Positions 34,499 to 41,828 of a stretch of 64,000 nucleotides of DNA are shown here, piece by piece. Made by a program: the position numbers and the translations under genes. Within the stretch, counting starts at the first letter, position 1, and each line of letters opens with the position of its first letter. This stretch comes from an uncultured Opitutia bacterium. GTDB lineage: Bacteria > Verrucomicrobiota > Verrucomicrobiia > Opitutales > UBA953. Location: the NCBI GenBank assembly GCA_945957395.1, contig CAMFKE010000003.1, positions 248,001-312,000 of the forward strand, read 5' to 3'. The notes beneath the pieces are model-generated. The model saw only the letters and a list, made by a program, of their open reading frames with translations. It did no database searches and was not told the origin of the DNA.

Positions 34499-35314
34499 AT
34501 GAAAATTTACCCGATTCTTGGCGCGGTCGCCGTTTCGTGCCTCTCGCTCACTCCCCAACTTGGTCACGCCCAAAGCGCGCCCGCCGGCGAGCAGGCCCGC
34601 ATGACCAAGCCGCTCGTCATTGTCAGCCGCCAGCTCGACGGAAAGTCGGTCAAGGGCGGCAACGGCAACTGGCACCGTCTGGAAGTCGAAGTGAAGGCGC
34701 TTCCTGACGGCATCAAGGCCGCCCTCCTCGCTCAGCAGGTGCCGGCCAAGTACGCCGGAGACTCCGTGAAGTGGGTGAACAATGTGAAGGTCAGCGTGGT
34801 GGCCGGCTTCAAGCCCAGCGGCTCCGACCTGAGCAAGCCGAAGGTTTATCAGGAGGTGCTCAAACTCAAGGAGCGCGCCACGGACGCCGCCGCCTTCGCC
34901 GCGGCCAAGGATGTCAACAACCCCGACAACTGGCGTTACTACAAGGCCTCCACCGTGGTCGCCACCCTCGAGGCCAACAAGCCCCGCAGCGTATTCTTCT
35001 ACATCCCCGGCGACATCGTCGAGCGCGACGGCATCACCAACCCGCGCCCCGATGCGGCCTATGTGACGCTGGAGGTCGACGGCCAGGAGGTTCCCGTGCT
35101 GGACGAGAAGGGCGCGCCCTTCACCGGCAGCAACGCCGTGCTCATCGCGGGCTCCAAGCCCGACGCCGCCAAGCTGGCCAAGCTTAAGGAAGTGGCCGAG
35201 CGCGCGGTGCGCGACACCGAGGGCGTGATGCGTCCTCAGAACCTCATCACCAACTTCATCGACGCCGACTGGAAGGCCTCCCCCGACTTCGTCCGCGAGG
35301 AGGCCGCGAAGTAA
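34499..35314 (+). CDS. Exported protein in the position of Amuc_1102 (pilus-associated locus)
   Basis: 271 residues from the ATG at 34499, which opens a signal peptide (MKIYPILGAVAVSCLSLTPQLGHAQ). The mature part is beta-rich with repeated segments such as KPLVIVSRQLDGKSV, VEVKALPDGIKAALLAQQ and SVFFYIPGDIVERDG. It is the first gene of a five-gene block whose order and gene types match Amuc_1102-1098 of Akkermansia, where Amuc_1102 is described as having an immunoglobulin-like fold. The match here is judged from position, size and export signal, not from an alignment. Role: unknown, probably envelope part of the pilus/secretin system. Confidence 0.7.
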   Translation: MKIYPILGAVAVSCLSLTPQLGHAQSAPAGEQARMTKPLVIVSRQLDGKSVKGGNGNWHRLEVEVKALPDGIKAALLAQQVPAKYAGDSVKWVNNVKVSVVAGFKPSGSDLSKPKVYQEVLKLKERATDAAAFAAAKDVNNPDNWRYYKASTVVATLEANKPRSVFFYIPGDIVERDGITNPRPDAAYVTLEVDGQEVPVLDEKGAPFTGSNAVLIAGSKPDAAKLAKLKEVAERAVRDTEGVMRPQNLITNFIDADWKASPDFVREEAAK

Positions 35315-35335
35315 AAAGCCTCCGCACGCAACCGC

Positions 35336-37012
35336 ATGAGCAGTCCCAAATCCATCATCGTCAACTGCGGCGCCACCCAGGTGGGCGTCTCCGTCTTCAC
35401 CAACAACGCCGGCCGGCTCACCCTGGAGCGCCTCGTCATCGAGGACCTCGACTACGACTACGCCGGCGAGGACGCCTGGCTCGGTGCGCTTTCCGTCGCC
35501 CTGGGCCGCATCGTGCGCGGGCTGAAGATTTCCGGCCCCGCGTCGGTCGTCGTGCCCGGCTACCAGCTGCTCACCAAGAGCATCCGCGTGCCGCAGGTCG
35601 AGCGGGCCAAGCAGGCCCAGATCATCGGTTTCGAGGCCCAGAACCAGATCCCGTTCCCGCTGAACGAGGTGGTCTGGGACAGCCAGATCATCGCCACCGA
35701 CGGCGTCGAGGCCGAGGTCATGCTCTTCGCCCTCAAGCAGGACGCCGCCGCGCGCATCGCCGGTGTCGTCTCCGCCTCCGGGCTCACCCCGTCGGTCCTC
35801 GAGGCCTCCACGCTCCTTGATTACCAGGCCTGGCGCGCCGCGAACCCGGCCGACACGGACGAGGTGCTCATCGTCAACATCGGCGCGCGCACCACGAACA
35901 TGACCTTCGTGAACGCCGCCGGCTTCAGTGTGCACAATGTGAACGTGGGCGGCAACCTGCTCACCCAGTCCATCTCGGACACGCTCGCCCTTCCGTTCGC
36001 CAAGGCCGAGGCCATCAAGGTGGCTCACTTCTCCGGCGCCCGCGCTCTGGCCGACAGCGACCCGCACGCGGCTGCGCTCAAGCAGACCGCGCTGGCCTTC
36101 ATGCGCCGCATCAGCCAGGAGGTCACCAAGCGCATCGTCATCTACAAGCGCCAGAATCAGAACAGCCAGCCCAAGCGCATCATCCTTACCGGCCGCGGCT
36201 CGCTGCTGCCCGGCCTGTCCGAGCTGCTTTGCGAGACCCAGCGCATCAGCGTCGACTACTTCGACCCCTTCGCCGCCTTCAACGCCTCCTCCGCCGTCGA
36301 TGCCGCCTACCTGGAGGGCTGCCGCGTCAGTCTTTCGGAAATCGTGGGCGAGGCGTCCCGCGCCACACTGCCCGGCGCCGTCGGCGTGAACCTGCTGCCG
36401 GCCGCGCTGGAGAGCCAGATGGCGTTCAACCGCCAGAAGCCCCTTCTGCTCGCCGCCGGCGCCTTGCTGGCGTTCGCCCCCTGGCCGCTTTGGCACCACT
36501 TCAACGCCGCCGCCGCCTCCGCCAAATCCGAGGTGCGCGCCGCCGACGCGCGTTATGTCGAACTGACCGGCCACCGCAAGGCCATCGAGGACGCCAAGTC
36601 CGAGGCCGAGCAGGTCGCCTCCCGAGTAAGCTCCCTCAACGACGCCGCCCGCGCCCGCGACAGCTGGCGCGAGTTCCTCGCCGATCTCCAATCGCGCGTG
36701 GCAGGCGTGCCGGATGTTTGGATTGAAGATCTTCGCTTCTCCCGCGTGCCCGCCGCCGTCGCCGAGGGCGCGCCCCCCGCCGACTCCTGCCGCGTCACCG
36801 TGCAGTTCTGCGCCCTTATCAAGGAGGTGTCGCCTGACGGAGCCTTCAACGGCGCCGCCGTCCAGGCGAAGCGTCGTCAGCTGCTCAGCGCCCTGGAAGG
36901 TTCCCCGTTTGTGGAGAAGATTCCCGGTGACGCCGAAAAGAGCGACCTGAAGAAGGCGAACCTCCCGCGCATCACCCTCACCCTGGTCATCAAGGACCAA
37001 AAGCCCCTCTGA
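35336..37012 (+). CDS. PilM-like actin-fold protein fused to a PilN-like membrane domain (Amuc_1101-like)
   Basis: 558 residues. Residues 1-340 look like PilM: SIIVNCGATQVGVSVF, VPGYQLLTKSIRVPQ, LIVNIGARTTNMTFV (the actin-type phosphate loop), NVNVGGNLLTQSISDTL and RIILTGRGSLLPGL. A membrane helix (PLLLAAGALLAFAPWPLWHHF is cut here at about residue 388) is followed by a coiled coil and a PilN-like alpha/beta part. In type IV pilus machines PilM is a cytoplasmic ring protein and PilN is its separate membrane partner; here both seem to be one chain. It overlaps no neighbour but is 2 bases from the next start. Confidence 0.85.
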   Translation: MSSPKSIIVNCGATQVGVSVFTNNAGRLTLERLVIEDLDYDYAGEDAWLGALSVALGRIVRGLKISGPASVVVPGYQLLTKSIRVPQVERAKQAQIIGFEAQNQIPFPLNEVVWDSQIIATDGVEAEVMLFALKQDAAARIAGVVSASGLTPSVLEASTLLDYQAWRAANPADTDEVLIVNIGARTTNMTFVNAAGFSVHNVNVGGNLLTQSISDTLALPFAKAEAIKVAHFSGARALADSDPHAAALKQTALAFMRRISQEVTKRIVIYKRQNQNSQPKRIILTGRGSLLPGLSELLCETQRISVDYFDPFAAFNASSAVDAAYLEGCRVSLSEIVGEASRATLPGAVGVNLLPAALESQMAFNRQKPLLLAAGALLAFAPWPLWHHFNAAAASAKSEVRAADARYVELTGHRKAIEDAKSEAEQVASRVSSLNDAARARDSWREFLADLQSRVAGVPDVWIEDLRFSRVPAAVAEGAPPADSCRVTVQFCALIKEVSPDGAFNGAAVQAKRRQLLSALEGSPFVEKIPGDAEKSDLKKANLPRITLTLVIKDQKPL

Positions 37013-37014
37013 GC

Positions 37015-38028
37015 ATGGAAGCCAAGAAATCCCCCGCCCTGCTGGCGACCCTGGCGGTCTTCGGCCTCGTCGCCCTCGCCGGCGCAGGCTTCACCGTTTT
37101 CGCTTACCTCGACTACTCCGACGCCTCCGTCAAGCTGGCCGCCGCCGACAAGAAGGTCGCCTCGCTGCTCAAGTCCGAGGTCGCGCTGACCCGTGACAAT
37201 GTCGACGCGGCGCAGTCCAACCTGCGCGCGCTGAAGGCGGCCGAGGCCGCCTTGCGCCTTGACCTCTCCGGTGACGGTGCCGGAAGTTTCGACGACAAGT
37301 ACACCGGCGCTCCCGGCGACCTTGGCGCGGTTATCAAGGACTCCGTGGAAGGCTGGCGCACCGTTTGCCGCAAGTCCGGCGTGCGCATCGCCGTGCCCAA
37401 GCCCGACGACTTCGCCTTCGGTTACTCGCGCTACTTCCAGACCGGCGGCACGCCGCCCTCCAAGTTCACCGCGCAGATTCATCGCCAGACCCGCGTGACC
37501 GATTTCCTCGTGAAGTCGCTGCTGCTCGCCAAGGCCTCCGACGACCTGCGCCTGGTCTCCGTCGCCCGCGAGCCCGTCGAGGTTTCCGGAGGCGTCCGTG
37601 GCGGCAACTTCGCCCCCGACGAGGTGGACCCGTCCTCTCGCCGCGATTCGGTGCTGCGCCGCGAAGGCCTCCTGCGCAGCGAGTTCTTCAGCGTCAAATT
37701 CGTCGCCCGCACCGATGTGCTGCGCCGTTTCGTCAACATCGTGACCGCCTCCGGTCGCTCCCTCGCGGTGCGCGGCGTCGAGGTCTCCCAGGCGACGCCT
37801 GAGCAGTTGGCCAACCCCGGGGCCCCGGGCGCGCCCGGCTCCGCCGTCGCGCTGCCCGCCGATCTCTTCGGCGCCCCCGCTCCCGCCCCCGGGGCTGCTG
37901 CCGCCGAGGTCAAGCCCGATGCGCCGGTCGTGAACGACACGCCCTCGCTGTTCACGGTCACGCTTGAGTATATCGAGCCGGTGGCTCCCGCCCCCGCCGT
38001 CGAGTCCGCCGAAAACGCCAACAAGTAA
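37015..38028 (+). CDS. Amuc_1100-like membrane protein (PilO-like position)
   Basis: 337 residues. One N-terminal membrane helix (LLATLAVFGLVALAGAGF, about residues 9-28) is followed by a coiled-coil stretch to about residue 85 and an alpha/beta periplasmic part, then an Ala/Pro-rich linker near residue 290. Size, topology and position between the PilM-type and the Amuc_1099-type genes match Amuc_1100, the Akkermansia protein known for TLR2 signalling and tied to pilus assembly. In pilus terms it occupies the PilO slot. Sequence-level identity to Amuc_1100 was not measured. It starts 2 bases after the previous stop, so it is surely co-translated. Confidence 0.75.
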   Translation: MEAKKSPALLATLAVFGLVALAGAGFTVFAYLDYSDASVKLAAADKKVASLLKSEVALTRDNVDAAQSNLRALKAAEAALRLDLSGDGAGSFDDKYTGAPGDLGAVIKDSVEGWRTVCRKSGVRIAVPKPDDFAFGYSRYFQTGGTPPSKFTAQIHRQTRVTDFLVKSLLLAKASDDLRLVSVAREPVEVSGGVRGGNFAPDEVDPSSRRDSVLRREGLLRSEFFSVKFVARTDVLRRFVNIVTASGRSLAVRGVEVSQATPEQLANPGAPGAPGSAVALPADLFGAPAPAPGAAAAEVKPDAPVVNDTPSLFTVTLEYIEPVAPAPAVESAENANK

Positions 38029-38043
38029 GCCCACCATAGCCCC

Positions 38044-38871
38044 ATGAGCCAGAACACCGCTCGACTCGCGCTTGGCGTGGCGTTCCTCGCCTGCGCCGGA
38101 ACAGTCGCCTTCAACCTCCTGCGCGCCGATGCCGCGCGCGTCACCGCCGCCACCGCCGGCACCTCCCCTTCGGGTTCGGCCTACCCCGCCATCGTCGTGC
38201 CCAAGGTGCCCGGACCCGCCCCCGAGTGGGTGCGCCCCGTGGCCGCCGAAGGCGACGCCTGGCGTTACGACCTGTTCACCCCGGTTGAGGTCCGTTGGGA
38301 TTCCAAGGCCTCCGCCTACATGCCCAAGGGCGAAGTCGCCCCGGTCGAGGCCCCCTTCGGCCTTCGCCTCCTCGCGCTGAAGCACCCCGTGTATCGCTAC
38401 ACCTCCGGCGGCTACCTCAGCATGCCCAATCCGGCCGACTCCATCGTCATGCTGCGCGACACCGTCGCCGGCACCGTGCTGCGCGGCAAAATCGGCCAGA
38501 CGCTGGGCGCCGAGGGCTCCAAGGTCACCCTGCTCGCCTGGGACGACAAGGCCAAGTCCGTCAAGCTCAAGGACCTCGCGCTCAACCGCGAACTCATCGT
38601 CACCGCCAAGCCCCTGGCCTTCACCGACAAGGTCATCGCCACCTTCTCCTCCGGCGACTCCGACGCCGTCGTTTGGACCGCCTCCGCAGTGGGTGAAAAA
38701 TTTGAGAACGAGGCCGGCTCTTATGTCATCAAAGGCATTGACTTCGAGGCCCAATCGGTGACGGTCGAAAAGACTTCGACCCCCGACCCCGTGAAAAACA
38801 AGCGTAAAACCACGGAGGAAACGCTCAGCCCGCTTGCCCTCGCGGCCCCCGTTTCCGGCCCCGCCCAATGA
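38044..38871 (+). CDS. Amuc_1099-like anchored protein (PilP-like position)
   Basis: 275 residues with an N-terminal hydrophobic helix (about residues 8-25) and a mostly beta extracytoplasmic region. DAWRYDLFTPVEVRW and LRGKIGQTLGAEGSKVTLLAWDD are distinctive. It ends in a disordered, lysine/threonine-rich tail. It lies between the Amuc_1100-like gene and the secretin, the place held in other type IV pilus operons by PilP, which links the inner-membrane complex to the secretin. No family was recognised from sequence alone. Confidence 0.7.
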   Translation: MSQNTARLALGVAFLACAGTVAFNLLRADAARVTAATAGTSPSGSAYPAIVVPKVPGPAPEWVRPVAAEGDAWRYDLFTPVEVRWDSKASAYMPKGEVAPVEAPFGLRLLALKHPVYRYTSGGYLSMPNPADSIVMLRDTVAGTVLRGKIGQTLGAEGSKVTLLAWDDKAKSVKLKDLALNRELIVTAKPLAFTDKVIATFSSGDSDAVVWTASAVGEKFENEAGSYVIKGIDFEAQSVTVEKTSTPDPVKNKRKTTEETLSPLALAAPVSGPAQ

Positions 38872-38924
38872 GTTTTTCGCCCTTTTCCTTTAACACCCCA
38901 CATACCTCCCCATCGGTCACCCGC

Positions 38925-41828
38925 ATGAACAAGCAGCAGCGTCTTAAACAGTGGATTGCCGCGCTGGCCCTCGCCGGCTTCCTCGCCCCCGTCTCCGCCT
39001 CCGCCCAGGATGACGCACAATCCCGCGCCAAGGCCGTCTCCCTGACCGCCGAGGCCATCACCGCCCGCGAAGGCGGCGACCTCCTCACGGAGAAGGCCAA
39101 GCTTGAGGAAATCCTCAAGCTCGACGCCGAAAACGCCGACGCCAAGACCCGTCTGGACGAGGTGAACAAGGCCCTGCTCGCCAAGTCCGAAGCGCCCGCC
39201 GGCCCCCTTTCCCCCCTCGACCGCGCCGCCCGGGAAAACCTTAACCTCTTCCGCGAGGTCGAGTCCGCCAAGCTGGACGCCCAGGACGCCGCCGCCCGCG
39301 GCGAATACGAGGCCGCCCTTTCCCTCCTCGACGAGGCCGGCGCCGCCCTGCCCGCCAACACCGCCGGCCAGGCCCTGAAGGATTCCATCACCCAGCTGCG
39401 CCAGCAGATTCTCGCCGACCGCGACTCCGGTGCCGCCGGCGTGAAGGGTGTCACCGGCGCCGCCGTCGCCGACAGCCTGCGCGTCAACAAGGAGCGCGTC
39501 AGCGAAGCCCGTCGTCTCATTTCCGAAGCCTCCTCGCTCACCTCCGACGGCCGCTTCGACGACGCCGGCGCCGCGCTTTCCAAGGCCGAGGCCACGCTGC
39601 CCAACAACAGCACCGCCGACACCGCCCGCGTGGAGCTCAAGAAGGCCAAGTCCAAGCTCTACACCGCCCGCTACTCCGCCGCCGTCGACAAGCGCGACAT
39701 GAAGTCCGCCGAGAAGGCCGTGGATGAGTTCGAACAGCTCAACGGCAAGGACGACAAGCGTTCCGTTTCCCTGCGCGCCGACCTCGTTTCCAAGCTGGGC
39801 GACCCCCACTACAAGTCGATCAACGAGGTGAGCCCCGACTTCGCCGCCCGCGAAAAGAAGGCCAACGACCTGCTCGCCAAGGGCCGCGCCCAGTACCTCT
39901 ACGGCGACTACCTCGGCGCTCTCGAGACCTACAAGGAAGTCCTCCAGTACCAGCCGTACAACACCGAGGCCAAGTCCTTCTCCATCAAGATCCGCGAGAC
40001 CCTCCACGAGAAGTCCGGCAGCTACAACGGCACCGTCACCAAGACCAAGCTCCTGGAGAGCGTCGATGTGGGCTGGTCCATGCCGGAAGCCTTCAACAAG
40101 GATGTCCGCTCCGGCGGCGCCGAGGTCGCCGAGGATCCCGTGGTGGCGCGCATGCGCAAGATCACCATCCCCACGATCTCCCTGCCGGACATGAAGCTCT
40201 CCGTGGTCGTCGCGACCCTGGCCGAGTACTCCATGGCCTACGACAAGGATCAGAAGGGCATCAACTTCAACCTGATCGACCCGGAGAAGAAGGACCCCAC
40301 CGTGTCCCTCACCCTGCGCGACATGCCCCTCTCCGGCGTGCTCGACCAGGTCCTGCGCTCCGTCAATTACTCCTACACCGTCAACAACGGTGTCGTCGAA
40401 ATCCGCCCCGATACCGGCAACGCCGAAATCGAGACCGAGTTCTTCCCGCTCTCCCAGGGTGCCGTCACCCGCATGACCGGCGCCGGCGCCAAGCCCGCTG
40501 ACACCGCCAACCCCTTCGGCGGCGGCGGCGACGCCGGCACGGGGGGCCGTCCCGAAGTGGAAGGCCTCAAGAAGTACTTCCGCGGCATCGGCATCGAGTT
40601 CAACGAGACCACCGGCACCGGTTTGAACTTCGACGGTCAGCAGCTGATCGTCACCCACAACCGCCGTGTCCTCGAGCGCGTTCGCAACACCCTGCGCCGC
40701 TACTCCGACACCAAGCAGATCTCCATCGAGTCCAAGTTCATCGAAGTCAATCAAGGCAACCTGAACGAAATCGCCGCCAACTGGCTGCTGACCAATCGCG
40801 ATGGCGGAAAGGACCAGATCAACGGCGCCACGGGCAATCGTTCCCTGGCCAGCGCCTTCACCAAGACTTCGGGTGGCAACCCGGGTAACATTACCCGCGT
40901 CACCAACCCCGTCTTCGATGTTAACGGCAACCAGATTGGCGGTGGCGAACAGCTTCCGGATGTGAACATCCCGAACAATTCGCCCGTCATCCCCGGCACG
41001 CCCAACTACGGCACGACGACCACCCCGTTCACTGGCAACTTCTCCAGCACCATCGGCATCGGCGGTTACAATGCGCAGCTGTTCATCACAGCGCTTGAGC
41101 AGACGACGGGTTCCGACCTTATGGCAGCTCCGAGCGTGACCGTGAAGGATAGCCAGCAGGCCACCATCAAGATTGTTCAGCTCCTGCGTTACCCGACCTC
41201 CTACTCGGCCATCCAGTCGCAGGTCGCCAACAACGGTAACAATAATAACAACAACAACGGCGGCGGCGGCGGCGGCTCCGTGGCCATCACGGCCGGTACC
41301 CCGCAGGACTTCGAAGTCCAGGAAGTCGGTATCTCGCTGGCCGTCACCCCGACCGTGCAGGCCGACGGTGAGTCCATCGAACTCGACCTCGAGCCCAAGA
41401 TCACCGAGTTCGAAGGCTTCGTGGAATACGGCGGCACCTCCGTGGCCGTCATCAGCAACACCACCGTCACCGTGCCTTCCGGCTTCTACCAGCCCATCTT
41501 CTCGGTGCGCGAAGTGAAGACCAAGGTCACCGTGTACGACGGCGCCACCGTGGTGCTCGGTGGTTTGATCCGCGAAGAGGTCAAGACCGTGCACGACAAG
41601 GTGCCCGTGCTCGGCGACATCCCGGTGCTCGGCAAGCTGTTCCGCTCGGACGGCAAGACCGCGAACAAGAAGAACCTGATGATCTTCGTGACCGCCAACC
41701 AGATCTCGCCCACCGGTTCCCAGCTCAAGGGCACCGTCGGCAATGTCCGCGCCGGCACGACCTTCCAGAACCCCACCCTGTCCTCGCCCTCCGGTTCGCA
41801 GTACCGCGCTCCGATCGAGGCCAAGTAA
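38925..41828 (+). CDS. Pilus/type II-like secretin with TPR N-terminus (Amuc_1098/PilQ-like)
   Basis: 967 residues from the ATG at 38925, chosen for its signal peptide (MNKQQRLKQWIAALALAGFLAP); an ATG at 38868 overlapping the previous stop would add 19 residues. An alanine-rich TPR-like region (to about residue 340) precedes secretin N-domains (ITIPTISLPDMKLSVVV; RRVLERVRNTLRRYSDTKQ) and the C-terminal secretin domain, with EVGISLAVTPTVQADG and the signature VPVLGDIPVLGKLFRSD. A run of Asn and Gly codons (41228-41278) lies in a loop. It forms the outer-membrane ring of the pilus or secretion system and ends the operon. Confidence 0.92.
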   Translation: MNKQQRLKQWIAALALAGFLAPVSASAQDDAQSRAKAVSLTAEAITAREGGDLLTEKAKLEEILKLDAENADAKTRLDEVNKALLAKSEAPAGPLSPLDRAARENLNLFREVESAKLDAQDAAARGEYEAALSLLDEAGAALPANTAGQALKDSITQLRQQILADRDSGAAGVKGVTGAAVADSLRVNKERVSEARRLISEASSLTSDGRFDDAGAALSKAEATLPNNSTADTARVELKKAKSKLYTARYSAAVDKRDMKSAEKAVDEFEQLNGKDDKRSVSLRADLVSKLGDPHYKSINEVSPDFAAREKKANDLLAKGRAQYLYGDYLGALETYKEVLQYQPYNTEAKSFSIKIRETLHEKSGSYNGTVTKTKLLESVDVGWSMPEAFNKDVRSGGAEVAEDPVVARMRKITIPTISLPDMKLSVVVATLAEYSMAYDKDQKGINFNLIDPEKKDPTVSLTLRDMPLSGVLDQVLRSVNYSYTVNNGVVEIRPDTGNAEIETEFFPLSQGAVTRMTGAGAKPADTANPFGGGGDAGTGGRPEVEGLKKYFRGIGIEFNETTGTGLNFDGQQLIVTHNRRVLERVRNTLRRYSDTKQISIESKFIEVNQGNLNEIAANWLLTNRDGGKDQINGATGNRSLASAFTKTSGGNPGNITRVTNPVFDVNGNQIGGGEQLPDVNIPNNSPVIPGTPNYGTTTTPFTGNFSSTIGIGGYNAQLFITALEQTTGSDLMAAPSVTVKDSQQATIKIVQLLRYPTSYSAIQSQVANNGNNNNNNNGGGGGGSVAITAGTPQDFEVQEVGISLAVTPTVQADGESIELDLEPKITEFEGFVEYGGTSVAVISNTTVTVPSGFYQPIFSVREVKTKVTVYDGATVVLGGLIREEVKTVHDKVPVLGDIPVLGKLFRSDGKTANKKNLMIFVTANQISPTGSQLKGTVGNVRAGTTFQNPTLSSPSGSQYRAPIEAK
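41228..41278 (+). repeat. AAC/AAT then GGC triplet run inside the secretin gene
   Basis: The sequence runs AACAACGGTAACAATAATAAC and on into AAC and then GGC triplets, encoding about nine Asn and six Gly. Triplet slippage would keep the frame, so loop length could vary between strains. Confidence 0.7.

Follow-up and report, generated by a model that had tools for sequence, protein, structure and literature searches.

The five genes at positions 34499-41828 of the window (the whole 64,000-nucleotide stretch analysed here, from an uncultured Opitutia bacterium) form an operon that is genuinely, if distantly, related to the five-gene operon behind the pilus-like machine of Akkermansia. Very probably its products make up the core that spans the envelope in the organism's type IVa pilus machine. 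All five genes lie on the + strand, one after another, with intergenic spacing of 21, 2, 15 and -4 bp. Each of the five ORFs has detectable relatives at the same position in many genomes. Because of their matches to solved proteins and their folds, the genes are read in order as exported protein, PilM-PilN, PilO, PilP and PilQ:

34499-35314, + strand: gene 1, Amuc_1102-type exported protein, 271 aa (profile-profile match, Sec-like signal peptide)
35336-37012, + strand: gene 2, PilM-PilN fusion, Amuc_1101-type, 558 aa (NF045709, TIGR01175, PDB PilM/PilN matches)
37015-38028, + strand: gene 3, PilO/GspM-type inner-membrane protein, Amuc_1100-type, 337 aa (NF038287, AF2 fold)
38044-38871, + strand: gene 4, PilP/GspC-type membrane-anchored protein, Amuc_1099-type, 275 aa (profile-profile match, AF2 fold)
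38868-41828, + strand: gene 5, PilQ-type secretin, Amuc_1098-type, 986 aa (NF042912, GspD/PilQ models, Pfam Secretin)

In type IVa pili such as those of Myxococcus and Pseudomonas, PilM-N, PilO and PilP connect the motor with the secretin. PilB pushes the pilus through PilQ and PilT, the retraction ATPase, withdraws it. The operon has the same parts in the same order as the PilM-PilN-PilO-PilP-PilQ systems of Pseudomonas, Myxococcus and Thermus. Unlike those systems, it fuses PilM and PilN in one gene, starts with an Amuc_1102-type exported gene, has a secretin with a TPR-like N-terminal part, and has its motor genes elsewhere.

Gene 2 contains a PilM actin-like domain at about residues 1-350, followed by a membrane helix and a PilN-like part. 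It matches the TIGR01175 pilM model (E 6e-29), and among PDB sequences its family profile finds solved PilM at E 2e-67 and, on the C-terminal part, solved PilN at E 5e-11. Gene 5 matches Pfam Secretin at E 8e-36, STN and TPR_19 more weakly, and both the GspD and PilQ models; its N-terminal region is TPR-like. Translation of gene 5 may begin at 38868, where an ATG overlaps the preceding stop, or at 38925 (MNKQQRL..., directly at the signal peptide). Judged by sequence, the PilM, PilN and PilQ of a type IVa alignment complex and secretin are present. The A. muciniphila secretin was localised to the outer membrane by immunogold (PMC4960237).

The gene 3 product has an N-terminal membrane helix, a coiled coil and a ferredoxin-like C-terminal region. 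An AF2 model, built with relatives from sampled loci, has a mean pLDDT of 82. Comparison with the Amuc_1100 structure had been proposed as a check of the original prediction, and solved Amuc_1100 (6lad) is indeed the best match in the PDB (Z 18.5, rmsd 2.1 over 159 residues). PilO 2rjz follows (Z 9.5, rmsd 2.3 over 92), with PulM 8a9x (Z 6.4, rmsd 2.8 over 76) and XcpY both below PilO. The model thus has a PilO fold with an N-terminal membrane helix.

The gene 4 product is predicted to consist of an N-terminal helix, a PilP/GspC-HR-like beta domain (about residues 114-197, nt 38383-38634) and a second small beta domain. Its sequence profile found no PDB relative, and a Foldseek search with its AF2 model (pLDDT 83) found no match at E 0.001. 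Upon realignment of the model the top six rows were all PilP, GspC or GspB with Z 6.6-7.7, namely LspC, GspB, and PilP of Myxococcus, Pseudomonas and Neisseria (two entries, one with PilQ); the next row, unrelated, had Z 3.6. This suggests that gene 4 carries the PilP beta domain, over about 70 residues and with a Z of 7.7 that is below stand-alone level and has no accompanying sequence match. A D.[DN].DG calcium-loop-like motif is present in 23/23 PilP-like proteins from outside the window's order and 0/16 from within it. The Akkermansia PilP-like protein has such a D.D.DG (EF-hand-like) loop, whereas the product of gene 4 lacks it. Amuc_1099 has been called uncharacterised (PMC13174399), and the passages on Amuc_1099 that were consulted do not name it as PilP. 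It now gains a PilP-type role assignment.

The genome (2.79 Mb in 14 contigs, 96% complete) has a single PilM locus, which is this operon; a second match is weak and partial and is probably FtsA. Contig C9 carries a pilB-pilT-pilB-pilC cluster that encodes PilB, PilT, a second PilB-type ATPase and PilC. Its PilT scores 446 bits against a curated cut-off of 319. PilB, PilT and PilC, the remaining parts of a type IVa pilus machine considered here, are present in the genome. Seven matches to the secretion-ATPase family, four secretins and 19 prepilin-like N-termini were counted. Relatives of PilB, PilT, PilC and GspG were searched for within about 9 kb of the operon at E 1e-5, and none was found in the 39 sampled loci or the loci from named organisms, while controls were recovered. 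Separation of motor and operon is the rule in the phylum among the loci examined. The original prediction of a machine with no adjacent pilin, ATPase or PilC genes was correct as to adjacency, but the same genome has the C9 cluster and the prepilin-like proteins.

We propose the following arrangement. The PilM-PilN fusion would provide the cytoplasmic ring and its inner-membrane anchor, and the Amuc_1100-type protein would be PilO, pairing with the PilN part. As PilP, the Amuc_1099-type protein would connect this platform with the secretin's periplasmic end, and the pilus would pass through the channel formed by the Amuc_1098-type protein as PilQ. Gene 1 would contribute an exported non-pilin accessory, which probably decorates the machine in its periplasmic or outer part. 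PilB, PilT and PilC, encoded elsewhere, would drive extension and retraction. The motor and pilin genes are not adjacent. Pairing of the C9 motor with the operon is suggested by co-occurrence and exclusion, and we infer that the two assemble and produce a pilus. By analogy with Akkermansia MUL2, such a pilus may be used in attachment and glycan capture (PMC13174399, PMC12418764). The earlier reading of the locus as a Verrucomicrobiota pilus/secretin machine is supported, with pilus formation itself the conditional part.

Co-occurrence was examined across the phylum. PilT is present in 276/288 genomes and is absent from 8/35 genomes without PilMN, the Amuc_1101-like fusion, compared with 4/253 genomes with it (Fisher 8e-6, a value uncorrected for kinship and not to be taken at face value). 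Eight of the 12 genomes without PilT also lack PilMN and the other 4 retain PilB. The co-occurrence of PilMN and PilT carries little statistical weight, because nearly all Verrucomicrobiota have PilT, and two families that have neither gene account for much of it.

The operon could instead encode a type II-like (GspL-M-C-D) platform for secretion or import, one that mainly moves proteins or glycans and does not make a pilus. GspL of the GspL-GspM-GspC-GspD platform is likewise a fusion, so that PilM-PilN has the GspL arrangement, and the operon products share folds with this platform; PulM, XcpY, LspC and GspB are among the structural matches, beside PilO and PilP. The Akkermansia locus has also been termed a mucin utilisation locus and likened to a secretion system (PMC13174399). 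However, the best sequence matches are pilus proteins, with gene 2 closest to the PilM and PilN of pilus machines, and PilT accompanies the operon. Unlike type II loci, the operon has no GspE, GspF or pseudopilin (GspG) relatives nearby, either in the window or in any of the 39 sampled and the named loci. The genome has a separate T2SS-like set of GspD, GspE, GspF and GspG on contig C10. Of its three further secretins, two were classified; both are GspD-like, and one of them lies inside the C10 cluster. These results make a type II-like platform unlikely and favor the type IVa pilus core.

Amuc_1102 has been called similar to an archaeal pilin (PMC13174399). If gene 1 encoded the pilus subunit, the operon would be self-contained except for the motor. 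A prepilin cleavage motif with a hydrophobic helix was found in 0/78 members of the gene 1 family, compared with 12/12 prepilin-like proteins of the same genome used as a control. A start resembling a Sec signal peptide cleaved by signal peptidase I was found in 74/78 members, using a rough pattern. Furthermore, gene 1 is missing from beside the operon in several lineages: no homologue was found there in loci of the Limisphaerales/Pedosphaera type, and in one genome (L070 and L071) the homologue lies about 1.2 Mb from the operon. Since the prepilin signal is absent, gene 1 probably encodes an exported accessory protein and not a pilin, and we regard a pilin role as very improbable. A phylum profile of gene 1 finds PDB 7DSZ at E 6e-43, although this profile includes Akkermansia rows and is not independent; the profile made from the window's order finds Amuc_1102 second in the list at E 0.24. 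The fold of gene 1 is presumably that of this solved relative, 7DSZ.

The relationship to Akkermansia was examined gene by gene. The reference was the Akkermansia locus L081, whose 1102 protein is about 90% identical to 7DSZ by eye. Order and strand in the window match those of L081 and sizes are approximately alike, which bears out the predicted colinearity with Amuc_1102-1101-1100-1099-1098. Gene 2 matches NF045709 (Amuc_1101_fam) at E 1.2e-87 with 295 bits against an equivalog cut-off of 650. Gene 3 matches NF038287 (Amuc_1100_fam) at E 2e-11 with 44 bits against 180, and gene 5 matches NF042912 (Amuc_1098_fam) at E 7e-119 with 398 bits against 750. Genes 2, 3 and 5 are, on these sequence models, homologous to Amuc_1101, Amuc_1100 and Amuc_1098 but fall under the NCBIfam equivalog cut-offs, hence they are not classed as equivalogs. 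Curated models gave no match for genes 1 and 4. BLAST against the Akkermansia genome was significant for genes 2 (1e-45) and 5 (9e-70) only; genes 1, 3 and 4 had no significant pairwise match to its proteins, and single-sequence searches of the same three genes against PDB sequences found nothing.

Relatives were therefore sought with profiles. They were gathered around Amuc_1100-like matches in many families of the phylum, the profiles were iterated, and gene order was then read. For profile-profile comparison, alignments restricted to the window's order were compared with alignments restricted to Akkermansia and Verrucomicrobiales in order to avoid circularity. Gene 1 matched the Verrucomicrobiales 1102 profile with 98.0% probability (E 3e-13, 172 columns) and gene 4 matched the 1099 profile with 98.1% (E 1e-13, 248 columns), while unrelated pairs used as controls gave 0.5% and 3%. 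Genes 1 and 4 are the most divergent of the five, and it is profile-profile comparison of their sequences that demonstrates homology. Unrelated best matches would have spoken against the original prediction; between curated models and profile-profile comparison, all five products proved related to the named Amuc proteins. The operon resembles Amuc_1102-1098/MUL2 of A. muciniphila (PMC5332112, PMC4960237, PMC13174399) in order, strand, approximate sizes and all five homologies, at about 20-30% identity between products.

The operon is a conserved feature of the phylum, found almost throughout the Verrucomicrobiota, and is not special to Akkermansia or to the window. Amuc_1100-like genes occur in 223/288 sampled phylum genomes and PilMN in 253/288, almost always as a single copy. 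Among 14 well-known control genomes, 2 (Thermus and Deinobacterium) match Amuc_1101_fam with scores below its cut-off, which a plain PilM would be expected to do. Core order and strand are kept in 38/38 sampled loci that have all four core genes, 32 of them with gene 1. Core order is also kept in 55/55 four-gene loci on contigs from named organisms, 36 of them with gene 1. The named loci include Cerasicoccus, Geminisphaera, Opitutaceae, Prosthecobacter and Akkermansiaceae, as well as Chthoniobacteraceae, Limisphaerales, Pedosphaera and Kiritimatiellae. Because the PilMN tree follows taxonomy, the operon looks vertically inherited; the window's order forms one clade (100/100), and the window is placed with members of its own family. 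Chance likeness, in which a generic secretin operon holds small genes unrelated to Amuc_1099-1102, would agree with the pairwise BLAST results for genes 1, 3 and 4 but is refuted by the profile-profile matches with their negative controls, the folds and the order conserved in every complete locus.

The original prediction held that the locus has little functional description outside Akkermansia, but it has in fact been described there. The locus, named MUL2, has been reported across the Akkermansiaceae and the order Verrucomicrobiales (PMC13174399), and its secretin was noted in other Verrucomicrobia (PMC4960237). The gain here is modest: an assignment of components, above all of PilP, together with a broader and apparently ancestral distribution. 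This distribution includes the window's order (Opitutales by nearest named relatives) and the Kiritimatiellae and exceeds that of the published survey. The Akkermansia 'pili' operon is a deep and nearly universal Verrucomicrobiota feature, not a gut adaptation.

With these assignments Amuc_1100, much studied as a pilus protein of the surface that acts on the host, occupies the position of PilO, which is relevant to claims of its exposure at the cell surface. Amuc_1100 was reported outside cells by immunofluorescence (PMC5332112). This conflicts with a PilO role, because PilO is predicted to be an inner-membrane protein. Amuc_1100 could represent an ancestral, single-copy, phylum-wide family of inner-membrane PilO, with the Amuc_1102-type protein as a new, phylum-specific ring or cap component of a T4P machine for attachment and periplasmic glycan uptake throughout the Verrucomicrobiota, but we advance this combined proposal only tentatively and think it rather doubtful as a whole.

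Scans of the operon for promoters and terminators gave no signal above chance. Its flanking genes differ from those of Amuc_1102-1098/MUL2. In the Akkermansiaceae the locus is flanked by dephospho-CoA kinase, rho and 3-dehydroquinate dehydratase (PMC13174399), none of which was seen among the ORFs read beside the operon in the window. From ORF translations, the genes upstream, on the opposite strand, encode an ABC transporter, apparently of the zinc-uptake type; on the downstream side the translations indicate a 5'-3' exonuclease-like gene and one that resembles purM.

The window's own genome (G000) carries a pilB-pilT-pilB-pilC cluster on contig C9, in which PilT is bracketed by two PilB-type ATPases; no alignment-complex genes were recognised adjoining it. 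A further, solitary PilB-type ATPase is located on contig C5. It is adjoined by a response-regulator-like gene, and no further pilus genes were recognised beside it.

Contig C9 (locus L028, 4231-10213): pilB-pilT-pilB-pilC cluster
Contig C5, about 208456-209616 (locus L033, 8925-10769): solitary PilB-type ATPase

PilT was not found at E 1e-70 in three sampled genomes (G116, G204 and G207), all of which possess both the operon and PilB. They possibly form pili that lack the usual retraction ATPase.

The PilP-type protein, encoded here by the fourth gene of the operon (38044-38871), was examined for the calcium-loop-like motif D.[DN].DG. 23/23 Verrucomicrobiota outside the window's order possess this motif, and 0/16 inside the order, 38044-38871 included, do so.

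Two or three tandem secretin genes close the operon in some lineages:

Locus L086, 11209-17067: tandem secretins at operon end
Locus L087, 11157-16207: tandem secretins at operon end
Locus L099, 77-7671: tandem secretins at operon end

In genome G172 (L070, L071), ~1.2 Mb lies between the four-gene core operon and the Amuc_1102-type gene. On two public MAG contigs labelled Akkermansia muciniphila (L137, L173), the operon has four genes and resembles that of Limisphaerales, suggesting that these labels are wrong.
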